DNA of 64,000 nt from Isoptericola halotolerans. GTDB taxonomy: Bacteria; Actinomycetota; Actinomycetes; Actinomycetales; Cellulomonadaceae. Below are positions 12,144-63,452 of this stretch, one piece after another. Under the pieces are notes generated by a model. It saw nothing but the letters and a program-made list of their open reading frames with translations, searched no databases and was not told where the DNA came from. Position 1 is the first letter of the stretch. Each line of letters starts with the position of its first letter. Made by a program: the position numbers and the translations under genes. The stretch covers positions 147,930-211,929 of the forward strand of contig NZ_JABEZU010000004.1 in the NCBI RefSeq assembly GCF_013149785.1. The letters run 5' to 3'.

Positions 12144-12239
12144 GCACGCCCCCGTCCCTCGCCGCGCACCCGGCCGGACGGCCCTCTTCGCCCACCTGAC
12201 CTGCCGACCATGCCGTCCCGACCGCCGAGCATGCGGTGA

Positions 12240-12267
12240 CGGCCCGTCCACCCATGCGGACGGGCCG
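12240..12267. terminator. Hairpin terminator between the Rid gene and oleD
   Basis: CGGCCCGTCC at 12240-12249 pairs with 12258-12267 across an eight-base loop. The two flanking genes converge on it, so it probably serves both. The remaining sequence from 12144 to 12325 shows nothing else recognisable. Confidence 0.6.
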
Positions 12268-12325
12268 CCATGGCATGTTCGGCGCCGGAGTCGGCGGCCG
12301 GAGTCGGCGCCCGGAGGCGGAGGGG

Positions 12326-13405
12326 TCAGACGGCGCCGCCGTAGTGGGCCGCCAGCCGACGCATCCCCTCGTCGATGCTCACCCGCGGACGCCAGCGCAG
12401 CTCCGCCCATGTCGACCGCTGGTCGAACCAGTGGGCCGTGGAGAGCTGCTCGGCGAGGAACCTCGTCATCGGGGGCTCGTCGGCCCCGGGCCGCACCCCC
12501 CAGACCGCCTCGACCAGCCCGCCCGCACCCCGGGCCAGCTTCGCCGGGACGCGCCACCGCGGCGGCGCCACACCCCCGGCGCGGCAGATGCCGGTCAGCA
12601 GGTCCGCCACGGTGCGCGGCTCACCGTTGGTGAGCACGTACGCCCGCCCCCGCACGACCTCGGGGCTGTCCTGCAGCCGGTCGAGGGCGGCGACGATCCC
12701 CTCGGCCGCGTTGTCCACGTACGTGGTGTCGATGAGCGCCGCCCCGTGCCCCAGCAGCGGCAGGCGCCCCGACCGCGCCCGGTCGATGATCCGCTCGACG
12801 AGCTGGGTGTCCCCCGGCCCCCACACGGCATGCGGCCGCACCGCCACGACACGGAGGTCCCCAGGTTGCGAGCGTCTCTGTTCGTCAGGATTCAGCCCCG
12901 GGTTCCTGACGGACAGAGACGCTCGCGCCGAACCGTCGTCTCGTCGCGCAGCAGCGCCGTCCCGGGACAGCGCCAGCAGCTCGGAGGCCGCCTTGGTCCG
13001 CGCGTACTCGCCGCGTGCCCGCACCGGGTCGGCCGGCTCGGCACCCACGCCGACCAGCGACGACCCGGCGTGCGCCACCGACGGCGACGACACCTGCACG
13101 AACCGTCGCACTCCCGCCCGTTCGGCGGCGTCCAGCAGCACCTGGGTCCCGCCGACGTTCACCTGCTCGAACTCCGCCGGGTCACCGGCGAGCGACACCT
13201 TCGCCGCGAGGTGCACGACGGCGTCGACCCCGTCGAGCGCGCGCGCGACCACGGCGGGGTCGGTCACCGACCCCGCGACGCCCTCGGCACCGGCGACACC
13301 GGACGGACGGCGCTGCAGGGTGCGCACACCGTCCCCACGCTCCACGAGCACGCGGGCGACCGCACCGCCGAGCAGCCCGGACGCGCCCGTGACGAGCACG
13401 GTCAC
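12326..13405 (-). CDS. oleD: OleD, 2-alkyl-3-oxoalkanoate reductase
   Basis: A 359-residue short-chain dehydrogenase of the extended (3-beta-HSD-like) type. VTVLVTGASGLLGGAVARVL (residues 1-20) holds the NAD(P)-binding TGxxGxxG motif. The catalytic Tyr-Lys pair is in GEYARTKAASE near residue 140, and AVRPHAVWGPGDTQLV follows. In olefin biosynthesis OleD reduces the beta-keto acid made by OleA to a beta-hydroxy acid. The start is a GTG at 13405 whose codon overlaps the stop of oleBC (GTGA), giving tight translational coupling. An unusual stretch at about residues 160-180, RASLSVRNPGLNPDEQRRS, is encoded by a long palindrome and has no counterpart expected in the family; it lies between the Tyr-Lys motif and the next strand, where a surface loop could tolerate it. 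Confidence 0.93.
   Translation of the reverse strand: MTVLVTGASGLLGGAVARVLVERGDGVRTLQRRPSGVAGAEGVAGSVTDPAVVARALDGVDAVVHLAAKVSLAGDPAEFEQVNVGGTQVLLDAAERAGVRRFVQVSSPSVAHAGSSLVGVGAEPADPVRARGEYARTKAASELLALSRDGAAARRDDGSARASLSVRNPGLNPDEQRRSQPGDLRVVAVRPHAVWGPGDTQLVERIIDRARSGRLPLLGHGAALIDTTYVDNAAEGIVAALDRLQDSPEVVRGRAYVLTNGEPRTVADLLTGICRAGGVAPPRWRVPAKLARGAGGLVEAVWGVRPGADEPPMTRFLAEQLSTAHWFDQRSTWAELRWRPRVSIDEGMRRLAAHYGGAV
12868..12926. repeat. 59-bp palindromic element inside oleD
   Basis: Twenty-three bases at 12868-12890 (beginning GCGAGCGTCTCTG) are complementary to 12904-12926 with a single T-G wobble; the loop is 13 bases. The element lies wholly within the oleD coding sequence, is read through in frame and adds about 20 residues. 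Its arms are far longer than chance would give in a coding region. It resembles in form, not in sequence, the palindrome at 62498-62553 inside pxpBC. Confidence 0.9.
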
Positions 13406-16161
13406 GGGGCGCCCACCCGGCCGCCGGCCAGCACCCCGTCCGCCCAGCGCGCCAGGCGCGCCCGGTCGATCTTGGAGTTGTGCCGCACGTCCGTGGGCAT
13501 CTGCGGCACGACGAGCACCGCCGCGAGCGGCACCGACGACGTCGCGCGCACAGCCGCGCCCAGGCCCTCCGGCGCGAGCCCCGGCCGCCGGACGCCGTCG
13601 GCGAGCTCCAGCACCGCGACCGCCTGCTGCACGCCCGCCGGCCCGACACCGACCACGGCTGCCCGCCGCACGGCCGCGACCCGCTCGATCGTCTGCTCCG
13701 GACCCACCGGCGCCAGCGGCCCCTCGGCGGTGGTCAGCACGTGCGCGAGCCGGCCCTCGATCCACAGCCGCCCCTCGGCGTCCAGGTGCCCGACGTCCCC
13801 GGTCCGGTGCCAGCGCCCCGGCGGGGTGTCGCGCTCGGCGGCCCGGTCGGTGAGCCACAGCCGGTCGTAGCGCTGCTTGAGGTGGGGTGCGCTCACGAGC
13901 ACCTCGCCCAGCACCCCGTGCACCTCCGGCCCCGACGACGGCGGCCCGGTCGCCGCGCCGTCGTCGTCCAGCGCGCTGACGGTCACCCCGCCGACCGCGG
14001 CGCCCATGATCGGCCGGCCCACGCACACGCCGTCGTCGGGGGCGGAGGCGGCCTCCCGGATGCCGTCGAGGTCGATGTCGGTGACGAGCAGGCACTCCGT
14101 CATCCCGTACGGGGTGTGCGCGCGGGCGTTCGGCATGAGGGCCTGCGCCGAGCCGAGCAGCTCGGCGCTGATCGGCGCGCCGGTGGACAGGAAGGTCTCC
14201 ACACGCTCGAGGGCCTCACGGTCCGCGTCTCCCAGCGCGTCGGCCGTGGCGACCACGTTGAGGATCGCCGCCGGGGAGAGGAACACGATCCGGGCGTCCG
14301 AGGCGCGCACGGCGTCCGCCACCGCCCGCGCGGTGAGGGTGCGCGGCGCCGAGACGTCCATGTCCGGGGTGACCGACCGGGTCCCCAGGGCCGGTCCGAG
14401 CAGCGCGAACGGCGCGAACCCGGTGACCAGGCCGGACTCGGGGCGCACGGCGTAGTGCCCGGCGAGCACGTCGCGCAGGGCCGAGAGCTGGGCGTGGGTG
14501 TACACGACCCCCTTGGCAGGGCCGGTCGACCCGGACGTGAACAGCACCGCGGCCTCGTCCTGCGGGCCGGGCTCGGGCGGCAGCTCGTGGCCCTCGCCGG
14601 CGCGGGCCACGTCCACCAGCTCGTGGTGGACGCCGAGCGCCCGGCGCGTCACGGCGTCGAGCGGGTCGGCCGAGATCCGCACCCCCGGCCAGCCGCACGC
14701 CCGCGCGGCCGCGAGCGCCTTCGTCTGGCCGACCAGGTACTGCGGCCAGGCGCCTCGCTGGGCGCGGGTCAACCCCCGGACGCCGAGGCCGGCGTCGGCG
14801 ACGACCACGACCGCCCCGATGCGCAGGCAGGCGTAGACGAGCGCGGTCAGGGTGGGGCCCGGCTGCACCAGCAGCGACACGCGGTCGCCGCGACGCACCC
14901 CGATGGAGTGCAGGCCCGCGGCGATGCGGCGCACCTGCCGGTCCAGGGCACGCCAGGTCACGGTGCCCGGCCCGGAGCCGGACATGTCGAGCACGGCGGA
15001 CTCGGCGCGGGTCGCGGGGTCGGCGGCCCGCTCGTCGAGGCCGGTCCAGATCGGCCCCCGGCCCCCGAACCCCTCGGTGCCGAACAGGAGGTTGCGCCCG
15101 CTTTGCCCCTCCATACCGGGCACAGGTTCCTGTTCGGCACCCAGGGCGACGCCGCGCAGCCAGTCCAGCACGGGCGCCGCGTAGTCGACGTCCTCGGCGA
15201 CCAGGTGGCCGGCCCCCTCGAACCGGTGCACCCGCGCCTGCGGGAGCCGGCCGATCAGATCATCCAGGTACCGGTCGGAGAACACCGGGTCGCGCGGACC
15301 CCACAGCAGCAGCGCCGGGACGTCCAGCGCCGCGACGCCGGTGGCGATGCGGTCCAGCTCCGGCCGGCTCGGGTGCTCGGCGTCGGCCGGGATGTCCGCC
15401 ACGAAGCCCTCGATGCCGGCGCGGTCGTCCGCGGTCCGGTACGGCAGCCGGTAGGCGTCCGCGACGTCGGCGGGCAGCCGGGGGTGCGCCAGAGCCAGCG
15501 TGGTCTCGAGGAACGCGGGCGTGCTGCTCGTGCCCGCCCGGTGGACACCGGGCGCCAGAGCGAGTCGCAGCGGGGCGGGGATCGCCACCCCGTCCGGCTG
15601 GTGCACCGCGGTGTTGAGCAGCGCGACGCCGGTCAGCAGCTCCGGGTGGTCGACGGCCCAGCTGAGGGAGACCACCCCTCCCCAGTCGTGCCCGAGCGTC
15701 ACCACCGGCCCGGACAGCCCCAGCTCGGCCGTGAACGCCCCGAGGTCCGCGACCCGCTCGGGCAGCGTACGGTGCCGGCCGCTGCGCGCGGACAGTCCCA
15801 TCTCGAGCTGGTCGACGGCGACCACCCGCCACGCGCCGGGCACACCGCCCGGGCGCTCGCCGGTGGCAGCGGCCGCGACGACGGCTCGCTCGGTGGCCAG
15901 GTCCACGAGGTCCCGCCACAGGTAGGACCACGTCGGGTTGCCGTGCACGGCCAGCACCGTGCCGACCGGCTCGATCCCCCGGGCGGCGAGATCCGGGCCG
16001 TTGTCGAGGTAGTGCCACTCGTCGCCGCTCGCGGCGACCCCGGCGCCACCCGAGGCGCGAGCGCCCGCCGGGCTGCCGCCGTCGGGCACGCACAGCACGT
16101 GGCTGAACCGTGGGTCGAGGCCGGGCAGGCCGGGCGGTACCGTGCTGGCGCCGATCCTCAC
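13402..16161 (-). CDS. oleBC: OleB-OleC fusion: beta-lactone decarboxylase and beta-lactone synthetase
   Basis: A 919-residue fusion. Residues 1 to about 330 form an alpha/beta hydrolase like haloalkane dehalogenases: VLAVHGNPTWSYLWRDL, then the nucleophile elbow LGHDWGGVVSLSW with Asp, and GAGHLVAEDV with the catalytic His. This is OleB, which decarboxylates the beta-lactone to the cis-alkene. From about 370 on, an AMP-forming ligase fold gives OleC: VLFTSGSTGPAKGVVYTH (P-loop), THTPYGMTE-like segment reading AHTPYGMTECLLV, and WHRTGDVGHLDAEGRLW; it converts the beta-hydroxy acid to the beta-lactone with ATP. OleBC fusions are known from Actinobacteria such as Micrococcus. The GTG start at 16161 overlaps the oleA stop, and the end overlaps the oleD start, so the three genes form one coupled operon. 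Confidence 0.95.
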   Translation of the reverse strand: MRIGASTVPPGLPGLDPRFSHVLCVPDGGSPAGARASGGAGVAASGDEWHYLDNGPDLAARGIEPVGTVLAVHGNPTWSYLWRDLVDLATERAVVAAAATGERPGGVPGAWRVVAVDQLEMGLSARSGRHRTLPERVADLGAFTAELGLSGPVVTLGHDWGGVVSLSWAVDHPELLTGVALLNTAVHQPDGVAIPAPLRLALAPGVHRAGTSSTPAFLETTLALAHPRLPADVADAYRLPYRTADDRAGIEGFVADIPADAEHPSRPELDRIATGVAALDVPALLLWGPRDPVFSDRYLDDLIGRLPQARVHRFEGAGHLVAEDVDYAAPVLDWLRGVALGAEQEPVPGMEGQSGRNLLFGTEGFGGRGPIWTGLDERAADPATRAESAVLDMSGSGPGTVTWRALDRQVRRIAAGLHSIGVRRGDRVSLLVQPGPTLTALVYACLRIGAVVVVADAGLGVRGLTRAQRGAWPQYLVGQTKALAAARACGWPGVRISADPLDAVTRRALGVHHELVDVARAGEGHELPPEPGPQDEAAVLFTSGSTGPAKGVVYTHAQLSALRDVLAGHYAVRPESGLVTGFAPFALLGPALGTRSVTPDMDVSAPRTLTARAVADAVRASDARIVFLSPAAILNVVATADALGDADREALERVETFLSTGAPISAELLGSAQALMPNARAHTPYGMTECLLVTDIDLDGIREAASAPDDGVCVGRPIMGAAVGGVTVSALDDDGAATGPPSSGPEVHGVLGEVLVSAPHLKQRYDRLWLTDRAAERDTPPGRWHRTGDVGHLDAEGRLWIEGRLAHVLTTAEGPLAPVGPEQTIERVAAVRRAAVVGVGPAGVQQAVAVLELADGVRRPGLAPEGLGAAVRATSSVPLAAVLVVPQMPTDVRHNSKIDRARLARWADGVLAGGRVGAP

Positions 16162-18631: not shown

Positions 18632-18697
18632 CTGATCGTCACTTCGTGTTCTGTCCGGCAGTCCGGACTGCCGGACAGAACACGAAGTGACGATCAG
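18632..18697. repeat. 66-bp perfect palindrome without loop
   Basis: Bases 18632-18664 are the exact reverse complement of 18665-18697, with no mismatch and no spacer; the first half begins CTGATCGTCACTTCGTG. It starts on the base after the threonine aldolase stop codon and its last bases supply the stop codon of the gene on the other strand (18694-18696). It can act as a terminator for both convergent genes, but a terminator does not need 33 perfect pairs. The central 40 bases recur at 19739-19778 with the same core, so it belongs to a family of mobile or homogenised palindromes. Confidence 0.95.
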
Positions 18698-19644
18698 AAC
18701 GAGGCGCCGGGCAGCGGGAGCAACGGGTTGACCCTCAGCGAGCCGCGCACCGCCGGGCGGAACGCCCTCAGCAGGGCGGCTGTCGCGGCCGCCGGGTCCG
18801 GGCCGTCCTTCGCGGTGAACCGCAGCGGCCGCACGCCGAGCCGCGCCGTGATGGCGTCCTCGCGCACCTTGTCCTCGAACCGCGCGTGGTCCGCGTCGTA
18901 GCCGGCGCCGAACGACCCGTCCACGTCCTTGACCCGGCCGTCGAACTCGACCAGCACCTTCTCCTCGGCCCAGCCCAGGTCCACGCGGTAGCGGCGTCCG
19001 TCCACCTCGACCGGGAGCTGCGTGCGTGGTCGGGGCAGCCCGGCGCGCAGTGCCAGGTAGCGGACCCACGTCTCCCAGGGCGACTCGGCACCGGCGTCGG
19101 CGTGCTCGAGGACCCATCGGGCGCGCGCCGTGCCGTTGCGGCGCCGCGGGCGGGCCCACAGATCCAGCGCTGCGGCCCGGTCCATACCCCTGCCAAGAGC
19201 CCAGTCCGCGACGACCAGGGCGTCCAGAGGATGGAGGGTCAGCGCGCAGTCCACGACGGTCCGGCGCAGCGTCGTCACGGGGAGAGCCCGCAGCACGACG
19301 TGCTCGTCCGGCACGCCCCGCCGTCGCACGATGTCGGCCGCGGCGCGGCTGCTCGGGCTGGACGGCACCAGCACGTGCACCCGCTGCGGCAGACGCCACA
19401 GCGGCGCACCCCACAGCAGCGCCGCGCTCTCGTGGCTGAACACGTGGCGAGCCCGGAGCTGACGGTGGACGGCGCGGAGCCGGTCGGTGGCGAGCCGACG
19501 AGCCGCCGCGTGCCTGTTCTGCTCCGGGCCGACCGGACGATAGGCGCCCCGGCGTACCCGCTCGAGGTCACCGTTCGCCGTGGCACGCCGCAGGACGTGG
19601 CGGTCGTGCTCGCGCGCGACGAGCAGGGTGTCCTCAGGGAGCAT
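18694..19644 (-). CDS. AbiEi-like antitoxin domain / DUF559 nuclease-fold protein
   Basis: A protein of about 316 residues of a type common in actinobacteria. The N-terminal part (VAREHDRHVLRRATANGDLE, then RRGAYRP) is a winged-helix AbiEi-type antitoxin domain that ends in the VRRGAY/RGVY turn. HVFSHESAALLWG and TTLRRTVVDCAL follow. The C-terminal part (LPVEVDGRRYRVDLGWAEEK, then VLVEFDGRVKD) is a DUF559/Vsr-like fold with an acidic site, D..E.D, resembling PD-(D/E)XK enzymes. No AbiEii toxin gene is adjacent, so a toxin-antitoxin role is not supported; the function of these orphans is unknown. The ATG at 19644 is chosen; a GTG at 19665 is possible. Palindromes of one family flank the gene on both sides. 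Confidence 0.75.
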   Translation of the reverse strand: MLPEDTLLVAREHDRHVLRRATANGDLERVRRGAYRPVGPEQNRHAAARRLATDRLRAVHRQLRARHVFSHESAALLWGAPLWRLPQRVHVLVPSSPSSRAAADIVRRRGVPDEHVVLRALPVTTLRRTVVDCALTLHPLDALVVADWALGRGMDRAAALDLWARPRRRNGTARARWVLEHADAGAESPWETWVRYLALRAGLPRPRTQLPVEVDGRRYRVDLGWAEEKVLVEFDGRVKDVDGSFGAGYDADHARFEDKVREDAITARLGVRPLRFTAKDGPDPAAATAALLRAFRPAVRGSLRVNPLLPLPGASF

Positions 19645-19738
19645 GGCGACAGGGTGCCGCAGCACGCACCACGAGCGTCGTCGGCCGACAAGATCTGTGG
19701 ACGGCGCTCGTCTGTGGACAGCGATCTGTCCGGCAGTC

Positions 19739-19778
19739 CGTGTTCTGTCCGGCAGTCCGGACTGCCGGACAGAACACG
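19739..19778. repeat. 40-bp perfect palindrome related to that at 18632
   Basis: Bases 19739-19758 (starting CGTGTTCTGTCCGG) are the exact reverse complement of 19759-19778. The core is identical to the inner 40 bases of the 66-bp palindrome at 18632-18697. On the right the similarity continues (GAGTGACGATCAGA, one base different), but on the left the outer arm is replaced by a second copy of CTGTCCGGCAGTCCG (19726-19740). This looks like a family member damaged by local duplication. It lies between the AbiEi-like gene and the SRPBCC gene. Confidence 0.93.
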
Positions 19779-19874
19779 GAGTGACGATCAGAAGGCCCGG
19801 ACACCGATTCGGCCCGACGACGACGCGGCGTTACGGTCGTCCTGACAGGTTGCGCACCGACCCAGGAGCCTCCC

Positions 19875-31098: not shown

Positions 31099-31146
31099 AC
31101 GACGGCGGCGGGTGACCCGGGAGACCGGGACGCCCGCCGCCGTCGT
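31099..31146. terminator. Terminator of the livHMGF operon
   Basis: ACGACGGCGGCGGG at 31099-31112 pairs perfectly with 31133-31146 around a 20-base loop. It lies between the convergent livF (end 31063) and lipoprotein gene (end 31157) and can serve both. Confidence 0.75.
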
Positions 31147-31156
31147 CATGGCGTCG

Positions 31157-32080
31157 TCATCCTGGCGGTACGGGCAGGTCCTGGCGGGCGTGCACGGAGA
31201 GGATCACGCCGGGCGGGACCTCGTCGGTGTGGTCCAGCAGCACCTGGGCCGTGTCGCCCTCGACCGACAGGGCGGGGTTCTCGAAGTACTCCGTGTACGG
31301 GCTGCCCGTCGTCGGGAGGCGGCCGGAGGCGAAGGCCTCGAGATAGTGGTCACCGAGCGCCTGCGGGTCGTCACCGTGGACGCAGACCACGCTCTGCCCG
31401 CCCGAGCCCGGGTCCTCGGCCGGGCCGCCGAGCACGCCGACGGCGATCGGTGTGGCGGCCGTCGGTTCGAGCACCGCTGCCGTCGCGTCGCCCAGGCAGC
31501 CGCTCAGCGCGGCGATCGTCGGGTCGTCGGCCAGCGAGTCCCCGGAGGCGTCGACGACCAGGAGGTCGGCAGAGGTCCCTCCGAGCGCGACGGAGTCCTC
31601 GGTGACCCGCAGCTGCGGCGCGACGATCGCGATCCCGGCCACGCCGGACTGCCTGTCGGTCAGATCGAGCTCGTGCGTCAGCACCTCGTCCCCCGTCCAG
31701 CCGGCAGCAGTCGAGGCGTCCCGCACCGCGGCACCGTCGTGGCCGCCGGAGACGAGCGTCAGCGCACCGGTCGGGTAGCCGACGGTGAGGAGGCTGTCCG
31801 CCTCGAGAAGATCGACCTCGAGCTGCTCGGACAGCTCCCGCGTGTGCTGCCCGATGTCCGGCGCGCCGGCGAGGGAGGTCTGCCAGTGCTCCGTCGCCAG
31901 CTCGCCGAGCGCACCCGGGTCGCTGAACGCGATGAGCTCGGGGACGTCGTCACCGGCACCGACCCGTCCCAGGGCGTCGGCGAGCGGACCGTCTCCCGAT
32001 GCCCCGCCGGAGCAGGCTGCCAGGGCCGTGACGAGCAGGAACGCAGAGGTGGCGGCGGCGGTGCGCGCAGGAGCAGGCAT
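31157..32080 (-). CDS. Putative lipoprotein of unknown function beside the liv genes
   Basis: A 307-residue protein starting at the ATG at 32080. Its signal peptide ends in the lipobox TALAACSGG (Cys near residue 23). The mature part is acidic and mixes helices and strands: ELIAFSDPGALGELATEHWQ, LLTVGYPTGALTLVSGGHDG, LLVVDASGDSLADDPTIAAL, and a C-terminal VQVLLDHTD-like strand reading AQVLLDHTDEVPPGVILSVH. Two Cys residues (SGCLGD and VVCVHG) may form a disulfide. I recognise no family. It sits between livHMGF and livK on the livK strand, but a terminator (32116-32149) separates it from livK, so a transport role is only suggested by position. Confidence 0.78.
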   Translation of the reverse strand: MPAPARTAAATSAFLLVTALAACSGGASGDGPLADALGRVGAGDDVPELIAFSDPGALGELATEHWQTSLAGAPDIGQHTRELSEQLEVDLLEADSLLTVGYPTGALTLVSGGHDGAAVRDASTAAGWTGDEVLTHELDLTDRQSGVAGIAIVAPQLRVTEDSVALGGTSADLLVVDASGDSLADDPTIAALSGCLGDATAAVLEPTAATPIAVGVLGGPAEDPGSGGQSVVCVHGDDPQALGDHYLEAFASGRLPTTGSPYTEYFENPALSVEGDTAQVLLDHTDEVPPGVILSVHARQDLPVPPG

Positions 32081-32115
32081 GCGGCGGACCCTAGCAAGGG
32101 GACCACAGGACGACT

Positions 32116-32149
32116 GCGGCCCGGTCACCTGGAGTGGTGACCGGGCCGC
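32116..32149. terminator. Terminator of livK
   Basis: GCGGCCCGGTCACC at 32116-32129 pairs perfectly with 32136-32149 across a six-base loop. It lies 36 bases downstream of the livK stop codon, in the space before the lipoprotein gene. Confidence 0.8.
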
Positions 32150-54834: not shown

Positions 54835-54852
54835 GCCGCCACCCTTCCACGG

Positions 54853-54920
54853 TGTGGGCGTGATTTCTGGGCGAATTTTCCGGGCAAACCAGACTTCACG
54901 GGCCAGAAATCACGCCCACA
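54853..54920. repeat. 68-bp inverted repeat with AT-richer spacer
   Basis: TGTGGGCGTGATTTCTGG at 54853-54870 is perfectly complementary to 54903-54920; the 32-base spacer is less GC-rich (GCGAATTTTCCGGGC...). It fills the space between the end of the arabinofuranosidase gene and the start of the winged-helix gene and could be a terminator of the former. The arms contain a run of AT bases unusual in this DNA. It does not share sequence with the other palindromes. Confidence 0.85.
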
Positions 54921-54931
54921 ACGCTCGGGGG

Positions 54932-61020: not shown

Positions 61021-61809
61021 ATGCTCCCTGCCTCCGCGTCGGCGCCACGGATCGACCTGAACAGCGACCTCGGCGAGGGGTTCGGCCGCTGGGAGCTGGG
61101 GGACGACGACCGCATGCTCGACGTCGTCTCCAGCGCCAACGTGGCCTGCGGTTTCCACGCCGGCGACCCCGCGACGATGCGGCGGACCGTCCGGGGTGCG
61201 GCCCGGCGCGGGGTGGCGATCGGGGCGCACGTGTCCTACCGGGACCTCGCGGGTTTCGGGCGTCGCGCGATGGACGTGCCGAGCGACGACCTGCGCGCCG
61301 ACGTCGTCTACCAGCTCGGTGCGCTGCAGGCCTTCGCCACCGCCGAGGGAGCGCGGGTGCGGTACGTCAAGCCGCACGGGGCGCTCTACCACGCGGCGGC
61401 GACGGACGAACGGGTCGCCCGCGACGTGGCCGTGGCGGTCGCCGGGGTGGACCCGACGCTCGTCCTGCTGGGTCTGCCGGGCAGCGTCGCGCTGTCCGCC
61501 GCGGCCGAGGCAGGTCTGGCGACCGCCACAGAGGCCTTCGCCGACCGGGCGTACACCCCGGCCGGGACGCTCGTGCCGCGCGGTGAGCCCGGGTCCGTGC
61601 TCGACGACGCCGACGCCGTCGCCGCGCGTGTCCTGCGGCTCGTCACCACCGGGACCGTCACGGCGGTCGACGGCACGGAGGTCCGCGTGCCGGCGGACTC
61701 CGTGTGCGTGCACGGGGACACCCCGGGTGCCGTCGCCATGGCGCAGCGGGTCCGCGAGGTGCTGGCCGCGCAGGGCGTGGAGCTGCGACCGTTCGTCGAG
61801 ACCGCATGA
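61021..61809 (+). CDS. pxpA: 5-oxoprolinase subunit A (LamB/YcsF family)
   Basis: A 262-residue protein. RIDLNSDLGEGFGRWELGDD is the family signature, and SSANVACGFHAGDPATMRRT, VRYVKPHGALYHAAATDERV and TPAGTLVPRGEPGSVLDDAD are further conserved blocks. PxpA with PxpB and PxpC forms the ATP-dependent 5-oxoprolinase that opens the damage product 5-oxoproline to glutamate. The ATG at 61021 has a CACACT box seven bases before it. The stop codon overlaps the start of pxpBC (ATGA), so all subunits are coupled. Confidence 0.94.
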   Translation: MLPASASAPRIDLNSDLGEGFGRWELGDDDRMLDVVSSANVACGFHAGDPATMRRTVRGAARRGVAIGAHVSYRDLAGFGRRAMDVPSDDLRADVVYQLGALQAFATAEGARVRYVKPHGALYHAAATDERVARDVAVAVAGVDPTLVLLGLPGSVALSAAAEAGLATATEAFADRAYTPAGTLVPRGEPGSVLDDADAVAARVLRLVTTGTVTAVDGTEVRVPADSVCVHGDTPGAVAMAQRVREVLAAQGVELRPFVETA

Positions 61810-63452
61810 GCGGGAGTCCCCGCGACGGGTCACCACCCGGCGCACCCGCCCCCGGGGTGCGGGTGCGGCGAGCCCGCGACGACGTCCTGCTGGTCGAGGT
61901 CGCCGACCTCGCGGCCGCCACCGAGCTGCACCGGTCCCTGCGCTCGGACCCGCTCCCCGGCGTCGGGCACACCGTGCCCGGCGCCCGCACGGTGCTGGTC
62001 CCCTTCGACACCGGGGTCGTCGAGGCGTCGACCCTCGCGGCGGCTCTGCTGGCGCGGGCCGCGGCGCCGTCGGCCGGCGCCGACGACCCCGGGCGGCTCG
62101 TGGAGGTCCCGACGACCTACGACGGCGCGGATCTCGACGACGTCGCCGCCCACCTCGGGTGGAGCCGCGCCGAGGTGGTGCGCCGGCACGCCGCCGCGGG
62201 CTGGACCGTCGGCTTCATGGGGTTCGCCCCCGGTTTCGGGTACCTGGTGGGGGACGACCCGGGTCTCGTCGTGCCGCGGCGCCCGTCCCCGCGCACGCGT
62301 GTCCCCACGGGGTCGGTGGCGCTCGCCGGCGAGTACTCCGGCGTCTACCCGCGCGCGAGCCCCGGCGGGTGGCAGCTGGTCGGCCGCACCGACGTCGCTG
62401 CCTGGGACGTCCGGCGCGACCCGCCGTCCCTGTGGGTCCCCGGCGACCACGTCCGTTTCGTGGCGGTGCGGGAGTCGGTGCGAGGCGCCCGCGCGGTCGG
62501 CACGTCCGGCTCCGCTCGGCAGCTCGAGGTGCCGAACGGAGCCGGACGTGCCGAGCGGAGCGGGCTGGAGGTGGTGGACCCGGGGCTGCAGACCCTCGTC
62601 CAGGACCTCGGCCGCCCCGGGCACGGCGACCTCGGCGTCACGGCCTCCGGTGCCGCCGACCCGCGCAGCCTGCGCGCCGCCGCACGAGCCGTCGGGAACG
62701 CGGCCGAGGCCGCCTGCCTGGAGACGCTCGGCGGGCTGCGGCTCCGCGCGCACGGGCCGTGCGTCGTCGCCGTGACGGGCGCAACCGGCCCCCTGCTGGT
62801 GACGACCGGCGCCGGCACCGTCCGTGAGCCGGCACGCGGCCGACCGTTCCCCCTGGCCGACGGCGACGAACTGACCGTCGGGATGCCGCCGCGCGGCCTG
62901 CGGTCCTACGTGGCGCTGCGCGGGGGCCTCGACGTCCCCCCGGTGCTGGGGTCGCGCGCCACCGACGTGCTCGCCGTCCTCGGACCGGACCCCGCGCACC
63001 GCGGCACGTTCCTCCCCGCCGCCGGGGCGGCGTCGTCGGCCGTGGCGGTCGACGACGTCGGAGGGCCCGACCCGCAGGAGCTGCCCGCCCCGGGCGAGAC
63101 GGTGACCCTGCGGGCCACGCTCGGCCCGCGCGACGACTGGTTCACCCCCGCAGCACGGCAGGTGCTCACCTCCCAGGTCTGGGAGGTCACGCCACGGTCC
63201 GACCGCATCGGGCTGCGCCTGGCCGGCGCCGTCCCGCTGGAGCGCGAGCCCGCCGCGCAGCACGCCGAGCTGCCGAGCGAGGGGTGCGTCACCGGAGCGC
63301 TGCAGGTCCCGCCCGACGGGCAGCCCGTCCTGCTCCTGACCGACCACCCGCTCACCGGGGGCTACCCCGTCGTCGCCGCGGTGTCGTCGAGGGACCTGTG
63401 GCGGCTCGGCCAGGTTCCCCCCGGGGCACGGCTGCGCTTCCGTGTGACGTGA
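61806..63452 (+). CDS. pxpBC: 5-oxoprolinase subunits B and C fused (PxpB-PxpC)
   Basis: A 548-residue fusion. Residues about 18-228 are PxpB (KipI-like): TYDGADLDDVAAHLGWSRAE and GFMGFAPGFGYLVGDDPGLV, VPTGSVALAGEYSGVYPRAS. Residues about 252-548 are PxpC (KipA/biotin-dependent carboxylase-like): LEVVDPGLQTLVQDLGRPGH, GLRSYVALRGGLDVPPVLGS and DHPLTGGYPVVAAVSSRD. Many bacteria have two separate genes. Here the joint (about residues 231-249, VGTSGSARQLEVPNGAGRAE) is encoded by a 56-bp palindrome, which may have created or lengthened the linker. With PxpA it forms the 5-oxoprolinase complex. Confidence 0.93.
   Translation: MSGSPRDGSPPGAPAPGVRVRRARDDVLLVEVADLAAATELHRSLRSDPLPGVGHTVPGARTVLVPFDTGVVEASTLAAALLARAAAPSAGADDPGRLVEVPTTYDGADLDDVAAHLGWSRAEVVRRHAAAGWTVGFMGFAPGFGYLVGDDPGLVVPRRPSPRTRVPTGSVALAGEYSGVYPRASPGGWQLVGRTDVAAWDVRRDPPSLWVPGDHVRFVAVRESVRGARAVGTSGSARQLEVPNGAGRAERSGLEVVDPGLQTLVQDLGRPGHGDLGVTASGAADPRSLRAAARAVGNAAEAACLETLGGLRLRAHGPCVVAVTGATGPLLVTTGAGTVREPARGRPFPLADGDELTVGMPPRGLRSYVALRGGLDVPPVLGSRATDVLAVLGPDPAHRGTFLPAAGAASSAVAVDDVGGPDPQELPAPGETVTLRATLGPRDDWFTPAARQVLTSQVWEVTPRSDRIGLRLAGAVPLEREPAAQHAELPSEGCVTGALQVPPDGQPVLLLTDHPLTGGYPVVAAVSSRDLWRLGQVPPGARLRFRVT
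62498..62553. repeat. 56-bp palindromic element at the PxpB-PxpC joint
   Basis: Bases 62498-62521 (beginning CGGCACGTCCGGCTCCG) are complementary to 62530-62553 with one mismatch; the loop is the eight bases GCTCGAGG. The element is read in frame and coincides exactly with the linker between two conserved domains. In layout (23-24 bp arms, short loop, one mismatch, within a coding region) it matches the element in oleD. Confidence 0.92.

Follow-up and report, generated by a model that had tools for sequence, protein, structure and literature searches.

The fused pxpB-pxpC gene (pxpBC) of Isoptericola halotolerans carries a long palindrome at the joint of its two parts, and this raises the question of whether the palindrome made the fusion or, if it did not, where it came from. 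The gene lies in the window, that is, the whole stretch of 64,000 nucleotides that was analysed, and its features are collected in Table 1. The hairpin of 56 bp proposed from a reading of the letters alone, with 24-bp arms of which 23 bases pair, was confirmed at 62498-62553, where 62498-62521 faces 62530-62553 across an 8-nt loop with 23 of 24 pairs; read without a loop, the palindrome has 27 of 29 pairs over 62497-62554. Its position between the PxpB and PxpC blocks was confirmed too, since it lies in frame within the ORF, 3' of the CT_C_D domain and 5' of the CT_A_B domain. When synonymous codons were permuted 150 times under a fixed protein sequence, the best hairpin score was at most 13, and the observed score was 23; folded as RNA, the element gave -59.8 kcal/mol (z -7.95). 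The protein resembles the PxpB-PxpC and urea amidolyase-like fusion proteins in domain order and sequence, with CT_C_D followed by CT_A_B in one ORF, and its sole oddity with respect to them is the linker insert of around 20 residues.

Table 1. Features of the window discussed in the text, in window coordinates.
Feature	Position	Strand	Remarks
Solo imperfect palindrome 3' of the oleD-like gene	12226..12281		Family of nuclease L222 (G000:C1:868395-869273)
Solo palindrome, in frame in the oleD-like gene	12868..12926	none	Family of nuclease L226 (G000:C2:189877-190770)
Solo palindrome, linker of the fused alpha/beta hydrolase/AMP-ligase (oleB-oleC-like) gene	15071..15146		Family of nuclease L224 (G000:C2:656867-657763)
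Perfect 66-bp palindrome	18632..18697	none	3' side of the nuclease gene 18694-19665
AbiEi-like + MTES_1575/DUF559-like (Vsr-fold REase) gene	18694..19665	-	323 aa; own palindromes on both sides
Palindrome, same family as 18632-18697	19726..19791		5' side of the nuclease gene 18694-19665; perfect 44-bp core 19737-19780
pxpA (LamB_YcsF)	61021..61809	+	4-base overlap (ATGA) with the pxpBC start
Fused pxpB-pxpC ORF	61806..63452	+	548 aa; CT_C_D (PxpB) residues 19-210, CT_A_B (PxpC) residues 276-546
pxpBC-linker palindrome	62497..62554	none	Codes for ~20 residues in frame; family of nuclease G000:C4:434130-435140

The sequence-only reading had proposed that the palindrome created the fusion by deleting the stop between pxpB and pxpC, and the exact position of the element between the two domains speaks for it. 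The homologues argue otherwise. A match was found in 79 of 118 genomes, from which the best 30 were taken (15 in the genus and 15 in other genera), and each of these 30 showed by tblastn a single match that is longer than 500 residues and spans the two domains, in such a way that all of them are fused, although the linkers of 18 lack any hairpin comparable to the palindrome, among them 14 of the 15 from outside the genus. In some other genera the PxpB and PxpC halves match as separate ORFs. Within the best 30 the palindrome is in register in ten, all of the genus, two of which are decayed copies (local scores 10 and 7), and two further genomes, G012 and G047, have imperfect linker hairpins of unrelated sequence (scores 17 and 16). 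A tree of both domains, made without the linker and rooted at its midpoint, needs three palindrome changes, possibly one gain and two losses, and permits the gain to have fallen within the lineage that was already fused. The oleB-oleC-like gene offers a second case against, as in G001 it is one continuous match whose linker has no palindrome. Judged from these homologues, the fusion is older than the palindrome, which is the outcome that the sequence-only reading had named as fatal to its proposal, and a fusion made by the palindrome is extremely improbable.

Three observations on single genes belong here. In G010, one of the 18 homologues without a hairpin, the linker peptide resembles by eye a decayed copy of the palindrome. 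The pxpBC gene of G001 (L156) has a single in-frame stop at residue 336, in the PxpC part, which reflects either a broken gene or a sequence error. The oleB-oleC-like gene of the window is a second fusion joint holding a palindrome, besides pxpBC.

The history of the element was followed through the ten in-register copies. These align over 60 bp with no gaps and on one axis, with 21 to 29 of 29 pairs, and they have flanking bases in common (GATCAGGTCGG in three rows, near forms in the others), so that the shared flanks and the single axis point to one old insertion in pxpBC. The identity among them is 42 to 83% over the 60 bp, and most remain palindromic: changes on both sides were found in 19 of 30 pairs, and the cells with a double change were 58, compared with a mean of 20.5 when shuffled (0 of 500 reached the observed value) and no more than 14 when slid. 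Bacteria are known to correct quasipalindromes, and the paired changes on both arms could arise from template-switch repair during replication, which would keep any palindrome perfect with neither a nuclease nor selection. Template switching gives no reason, however, for the shared sequence of copies that lie at different places in one genome. In the genome of the window (G000) the pxpBC copy has 93% identity with a dispersed copy at C2:76585 and 83-84% with its nearest orthologue; the contrast is weak in G008, whose pxpBC copy is up to 86% identical to its own dispersed copies, 84% to a G011 copy and 79-81% to the pxpBC orthologues. As the explanation of the co-variation it is quite unlikely, and it may act in addition to the nuclease described below.

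The palindrome belongs to a dispersed family. At E <1e-5 the pxpBC palindrome was found at 14 places in G000, itself included, and two of these relatives flank a nuclease gene at G000:C4:434130-435140, whose family has ten matches in the same genome. In 464 kb of G000 (the sample plus the window), solo copies were detected for 6 of 7 palindrome-flanked nucleases. Each of the four solo palindromes of the window has its best match in the flanks of a different nuclease paralogue, all four paralogues being located elsewhere, and three of the palindromes are inside genes and in frame (oleD-like, oleB-oleC-like and pxpBC). The likeness to an element of different sequence in oleD, which had been noticed before, holds, that element being a palindrome of another family, and the accompanying suggestion of one mechanism with several sequence families gains support from the match of the four solo palindromes to four paralogues of one nuclease family. 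The oleD-like palindrome spans around 20 residues, and at that place G001 and G004 are 29 and 22 residues shorter; it is absent in G001, G004 and G008, the last of which has a shorter unrelated stretch, and G011 has an apparent remnant. The region at 12212 gave no clean alignment with the sister genomes. A search of plasmids with the pxpBC palindrome gave no match, and a scan of genome contigs with an 18-base arm returned at least 116 stretches, in many phyla.

A further palindrome of the window, at 54850-54923 (arms like CGGTGTGGGCGTGATTTCTGG), resembles another one elsewhere in the genome, at L209:2581-2652, and the gene gap of G001 that matches it holds a palindrome of different sequence.

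The nuclease family joins an AbiEi-like half, at the N-terminus, to a Vsr-like REase half. Its members match AbiEi models, the commonest of which was matched by 33 of 34, and PF18741 (REase_MTES_1575) was matched by 8 of 34 and DUF559 by 1 of 34, at E up to 0.01, so that for this second part most members taken alone give no match. The MTES_1575 endonuclease is described, in a passage of PMC3710099, as having the Vsr REase fold. E198, D229, E240 and D242 are invariant in the 34 rows of alignment A1, which leaves out L223, L230 and L240. The single-sequence structure model of the nuclease was poor (pLDDT 39.6), and a profile search of PDB sequences gave only two matches, both non-significant: an antibody at E 0.23, and 3hrl, an "Endonuclease-Like Protein", at E 0.77 over the REase half. 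Viral relatives of the nuclease were searched for and none was found, and a Pfam scan of 10 neighbours at 7 nuclease loci found no AbiEii partner. Loci L218 of G000 and L234 of G003 have neighbours of the same two Pfam families; the nuclease unit can thus persist at one orthologous place, and the gene itself may move rarely. RAYT genes, likewise, can persist at one place between species.

The association between these genes and palindromes was measured at 37 loci of the genus, 9 from G000 and 28 from sister genomes, out of 59 genus matches; L225, a piece of L219, was left out, and the ORF of L240 is probably mis-framed. The test asked for a palindrome within 400 bp by a score cut-off only, in such a way that some one-sided matches are ordinary terminator-like hairpins. 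Palindromes were found on both sides at 19 loci, on one side at 11 and on none at 7, this last group including L230, which has 83 bases on one side. Among 4986 random 970-bp intervals of the G000 sample taken as control, from which starts in L202 17200-18900 (around a nuclease) were left out, the figures were 8, 140 and 4838. Several nucleases have no matched long palindrome pair in the 864 kb, from six genomes, that were scanned for such pairs, and the link is not obligatory, as 7 of 37 loci in the genus and 20 of 27 distant ones lack a flanking palindrome at the cut-off. A whole palindrome-nuclease-palindrome unit is absent in G001, between the same neighbour genes.

On another view, the palindromes terminate transcription in both directions between convergent genes and owe their spread to some unrelated process, the nuclease gene merely tending to sit between two of them. 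Of the 11 other solo copies that the pxpBC family has in G000, at least 5 lie between convergent ORFs, as judged from ORFs and third-position GC only, as do several in G255, and 9 of 11 units have the same placement by an ORF heuristic that can err. In the 864 kb, however, there are 4 palindrome pairs with an identity of at least 80% and a spacing of 0.4-2.5 kb, and all 4 enclose an ORF of the nuclease family and nothing else. The next-best pairs have identities of 0.75 and 0.74; the former, in G011, is terminator-like and also encloses a nuclease-family ORF, which favours terminators, and the latter encloses none. Copies in frame within genes cannot be terminators, and the palindrome sequence goes with the nuclease, as shown in the next paragraph, so that we regard terminators as a very unlikely explanation.

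Palindrome and nuclease sequences were compared at the 21 of 37 loci where both palindromes are present, under a cut-off looser than that of the flank count. The best match of the left palindrome among the 21 right ones was that of its own locus in 18 of 21 cases, and left-right identity had a median of 0.91 within a locus and 0.66 between loci. Palindrome similarity also tracks nuclease similarity (Mantel r 0.65, 0 of 5000 permutations), a correlation that template switching would leave unexplained. Each palindrome-flanked locus, or group of near relatives, has its own palindrome sequence. When the pxpBC copies of 10 genomes were compared with the flanks of 28 nuclease loci, G000, G008 and G014 (3 of 10) had the best match in their own genome and G011 and G007 had it in a near relative; for G003, G004, G001, G016 and G013 it was in another genome. 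Own-genome matches in only three genomes count against the model of a cognate nuclease.

Two observations concern single loci. At the place of the window nuclease, G011 has a nuclease around 54-55% identical with quite different palindromes (84 bp, with arms of 42; L231:1405-1488 and 2560-2643), a pair that co-diverges at one locus. The window hairpins at 31099 and 32111 are terminator-like and enclose a lipoprotein-like ORF (31157-32128) and no nuclease, and the matching region in G008 (C2:207949-208719), G011, G001 and G004 has a nuclease-family ORF without matched long palindromes.

Within the arms, internal repetition was strongest at a spacing of 19 or 20 bp in 36 of the 43 palindromes of the genus, so that an element tends to contain four occurrences of a motif, around two helical turns apart within the arm. 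AbiEi-type antitoxins bind inverted repeats, and both this spacing and the cognate co-variation would fit binding sites, that is, operators by which an AbiEi-like regulator controls its own gene and others elsewhere, with no mobility of the palindromes. Such operators, on the other hand, would hardly be expected on both sides of the gene, in frame inside enzyme genes, at around 40 copies or more in each of two genomes (G263 and G255), or present in one species and absent in another, and no AbiEii toxin was found among the 10 neighbours of 7 loci. We consider this explanation unlikely, and the least unlikely of the alternatives.

The same association was found in some genomes far outside the genus. 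A profile search with the nuclease across the phylum gave matches in 59 of 198 genomes, one of them G000, and among the 27 distant loci with full flanks (2 of 29 with short flanks were left out) palindromes were present on both sides in 6, on one side in 1 and on none in 20. The flank palindrome of G263 has at least 40 places in that genome, 14 in G189 and 4 in G154, where two of the four surround the nuclease of G154 itself; none was found in G210. That of G255 has at least about 40 places in its genome, and identity reaches 96% among the copies outside its own locus. Target-site duplications, which go with MITEs of DDE insertion sequences, were looked for by eye at 19 loci of G255 and none was seen; at one of these loci (L331) the palindrome picked was a different one. 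By eye, several of the G255 copies (L314-L332) extend symmetrically into locus-specific flanks (CCCC/GGGG, GCGCCG/CGGCGC, GTGCGC/GCGCAC), and these extensions may be a trace of the mode of insertion.

Among known systems, the closest likeness is with REP/REPIN elements and their RAYT enzymes (Y1 HUH), or "REPtrons", for which part of PMC3733652 describes short palindromes dispersed between and sometimes inside genes, and an enzyme gene flanked by palindromes. Here too palindromes with further copies across the genome lie on both sides of the enzyme gene, but the enzyme is of the Vsr-like REase kind, the palindromes are longer, with the motif usually twice per arm, and the pxpBC palindrome has no GTAG (neither GTAG nor CTAC occurs in 62497-62554). 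A RAYT was considered as the mover of the palindromes and rejected, because the Y1 HUH tyrosine transposase (PF01797) was found in 0 of 18 genomes of the genus, with 5 of 14 controls positive. Rickettsia palindromic elements and CGTC REPs share with our elements the location of palindromes inside genes; what differs here is the presence of a candidate dedicated enzyme, and the CGTC of the pxpBC palindrome is internal, at offset 6 of 58 bp, and not terminal as in those elements. EDxHD or Vsr-like homing endonucleases have a Vsr-like domain in a small free-standing gene, as do the nucleases described here, which have an invariant E, D, ExD set; these differ in having no intron or intein at the loci read, and in their flanking and dispersed palindromic repeats. 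The likeness to AbiE toxin-antitoxin systems lies in the match to AbiEi models, and the differences are the REase-like half and the lack of AbiEii among 10 neighbours at 7 loci. In a literature search judged by titles and abstract openings, which covered few subscription papers and no bioRxiv preprints, none of the papers listed linked such nucleases to palindromes. By analogy, the pairing of palindrome and nuclease would work like REPIN/RAYT, with a putative role for the enzyme, but its transposase was not found in the 18 genomes of the genus and GTAG is absent from the pxpBC palindrome.

In our reading, to which we give roughly two chances in three, the pxpBC palindrome is a solo copy of a family of short non-autonomous mobile repeats tied to a cognate Vsr-fold nuclease, in a REPIN-like manner, with in-frame insertion into linkers that were already there. 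The association with the gene, the cognate sequences, the dispersal, the presence and absence between species and the paired changes are observed, and the nuclease would act on the palindromes by copying or converting them. The AbiEi-like half would bind the repeated motif, and the Vsr-like half would nick or cut the palindrome, as a cruciform or as a single-stranded hairpin; as a result the palindrome would be copied into new sites and copies already present would undergo conversion, in a role similar to that of RAYT transposases for REPINs. At pxpBC, one copy would have entered the already fused gene early in the genus, would have survived because the linker tolerates around 20 extra residues, and, in most of the lineages that carry it, would since have been maintained as a palindrome through changes of its sequence. 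Those copies may have been rewritten as the nuclease changed, or some other process may have preserved them. The same enzyme could alternatively work through homing-type repair at cut palindromes, and we favour the REPIN/RAYT-like mode. More tentatively, and with the odds near balance, an AbiEi-like/Vsr-fold nuclease that belongs to no known transposase family would spread cognate palindromes throughout the phylum, rewrite old copies as its specificity drifts and add linker peptides to proteins.

These results associate a specific enzyme family with the repeats, with several paralogues per genome that have their own repeat families where palindromes are present. If the enzyme copies palindromes, this would be a mechanism of mobile DNA with a type of enzyme that, to our knowledge, has not been tied to such repeats before. 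It would also provide a natural series of protein-DNA pairs for the study of how specificity evolves, would explain some of the in-frame peptide insertions in enzymes, and would point to a function for a multi-copy family of proteins, the models of which carry the name of an antitoxin.
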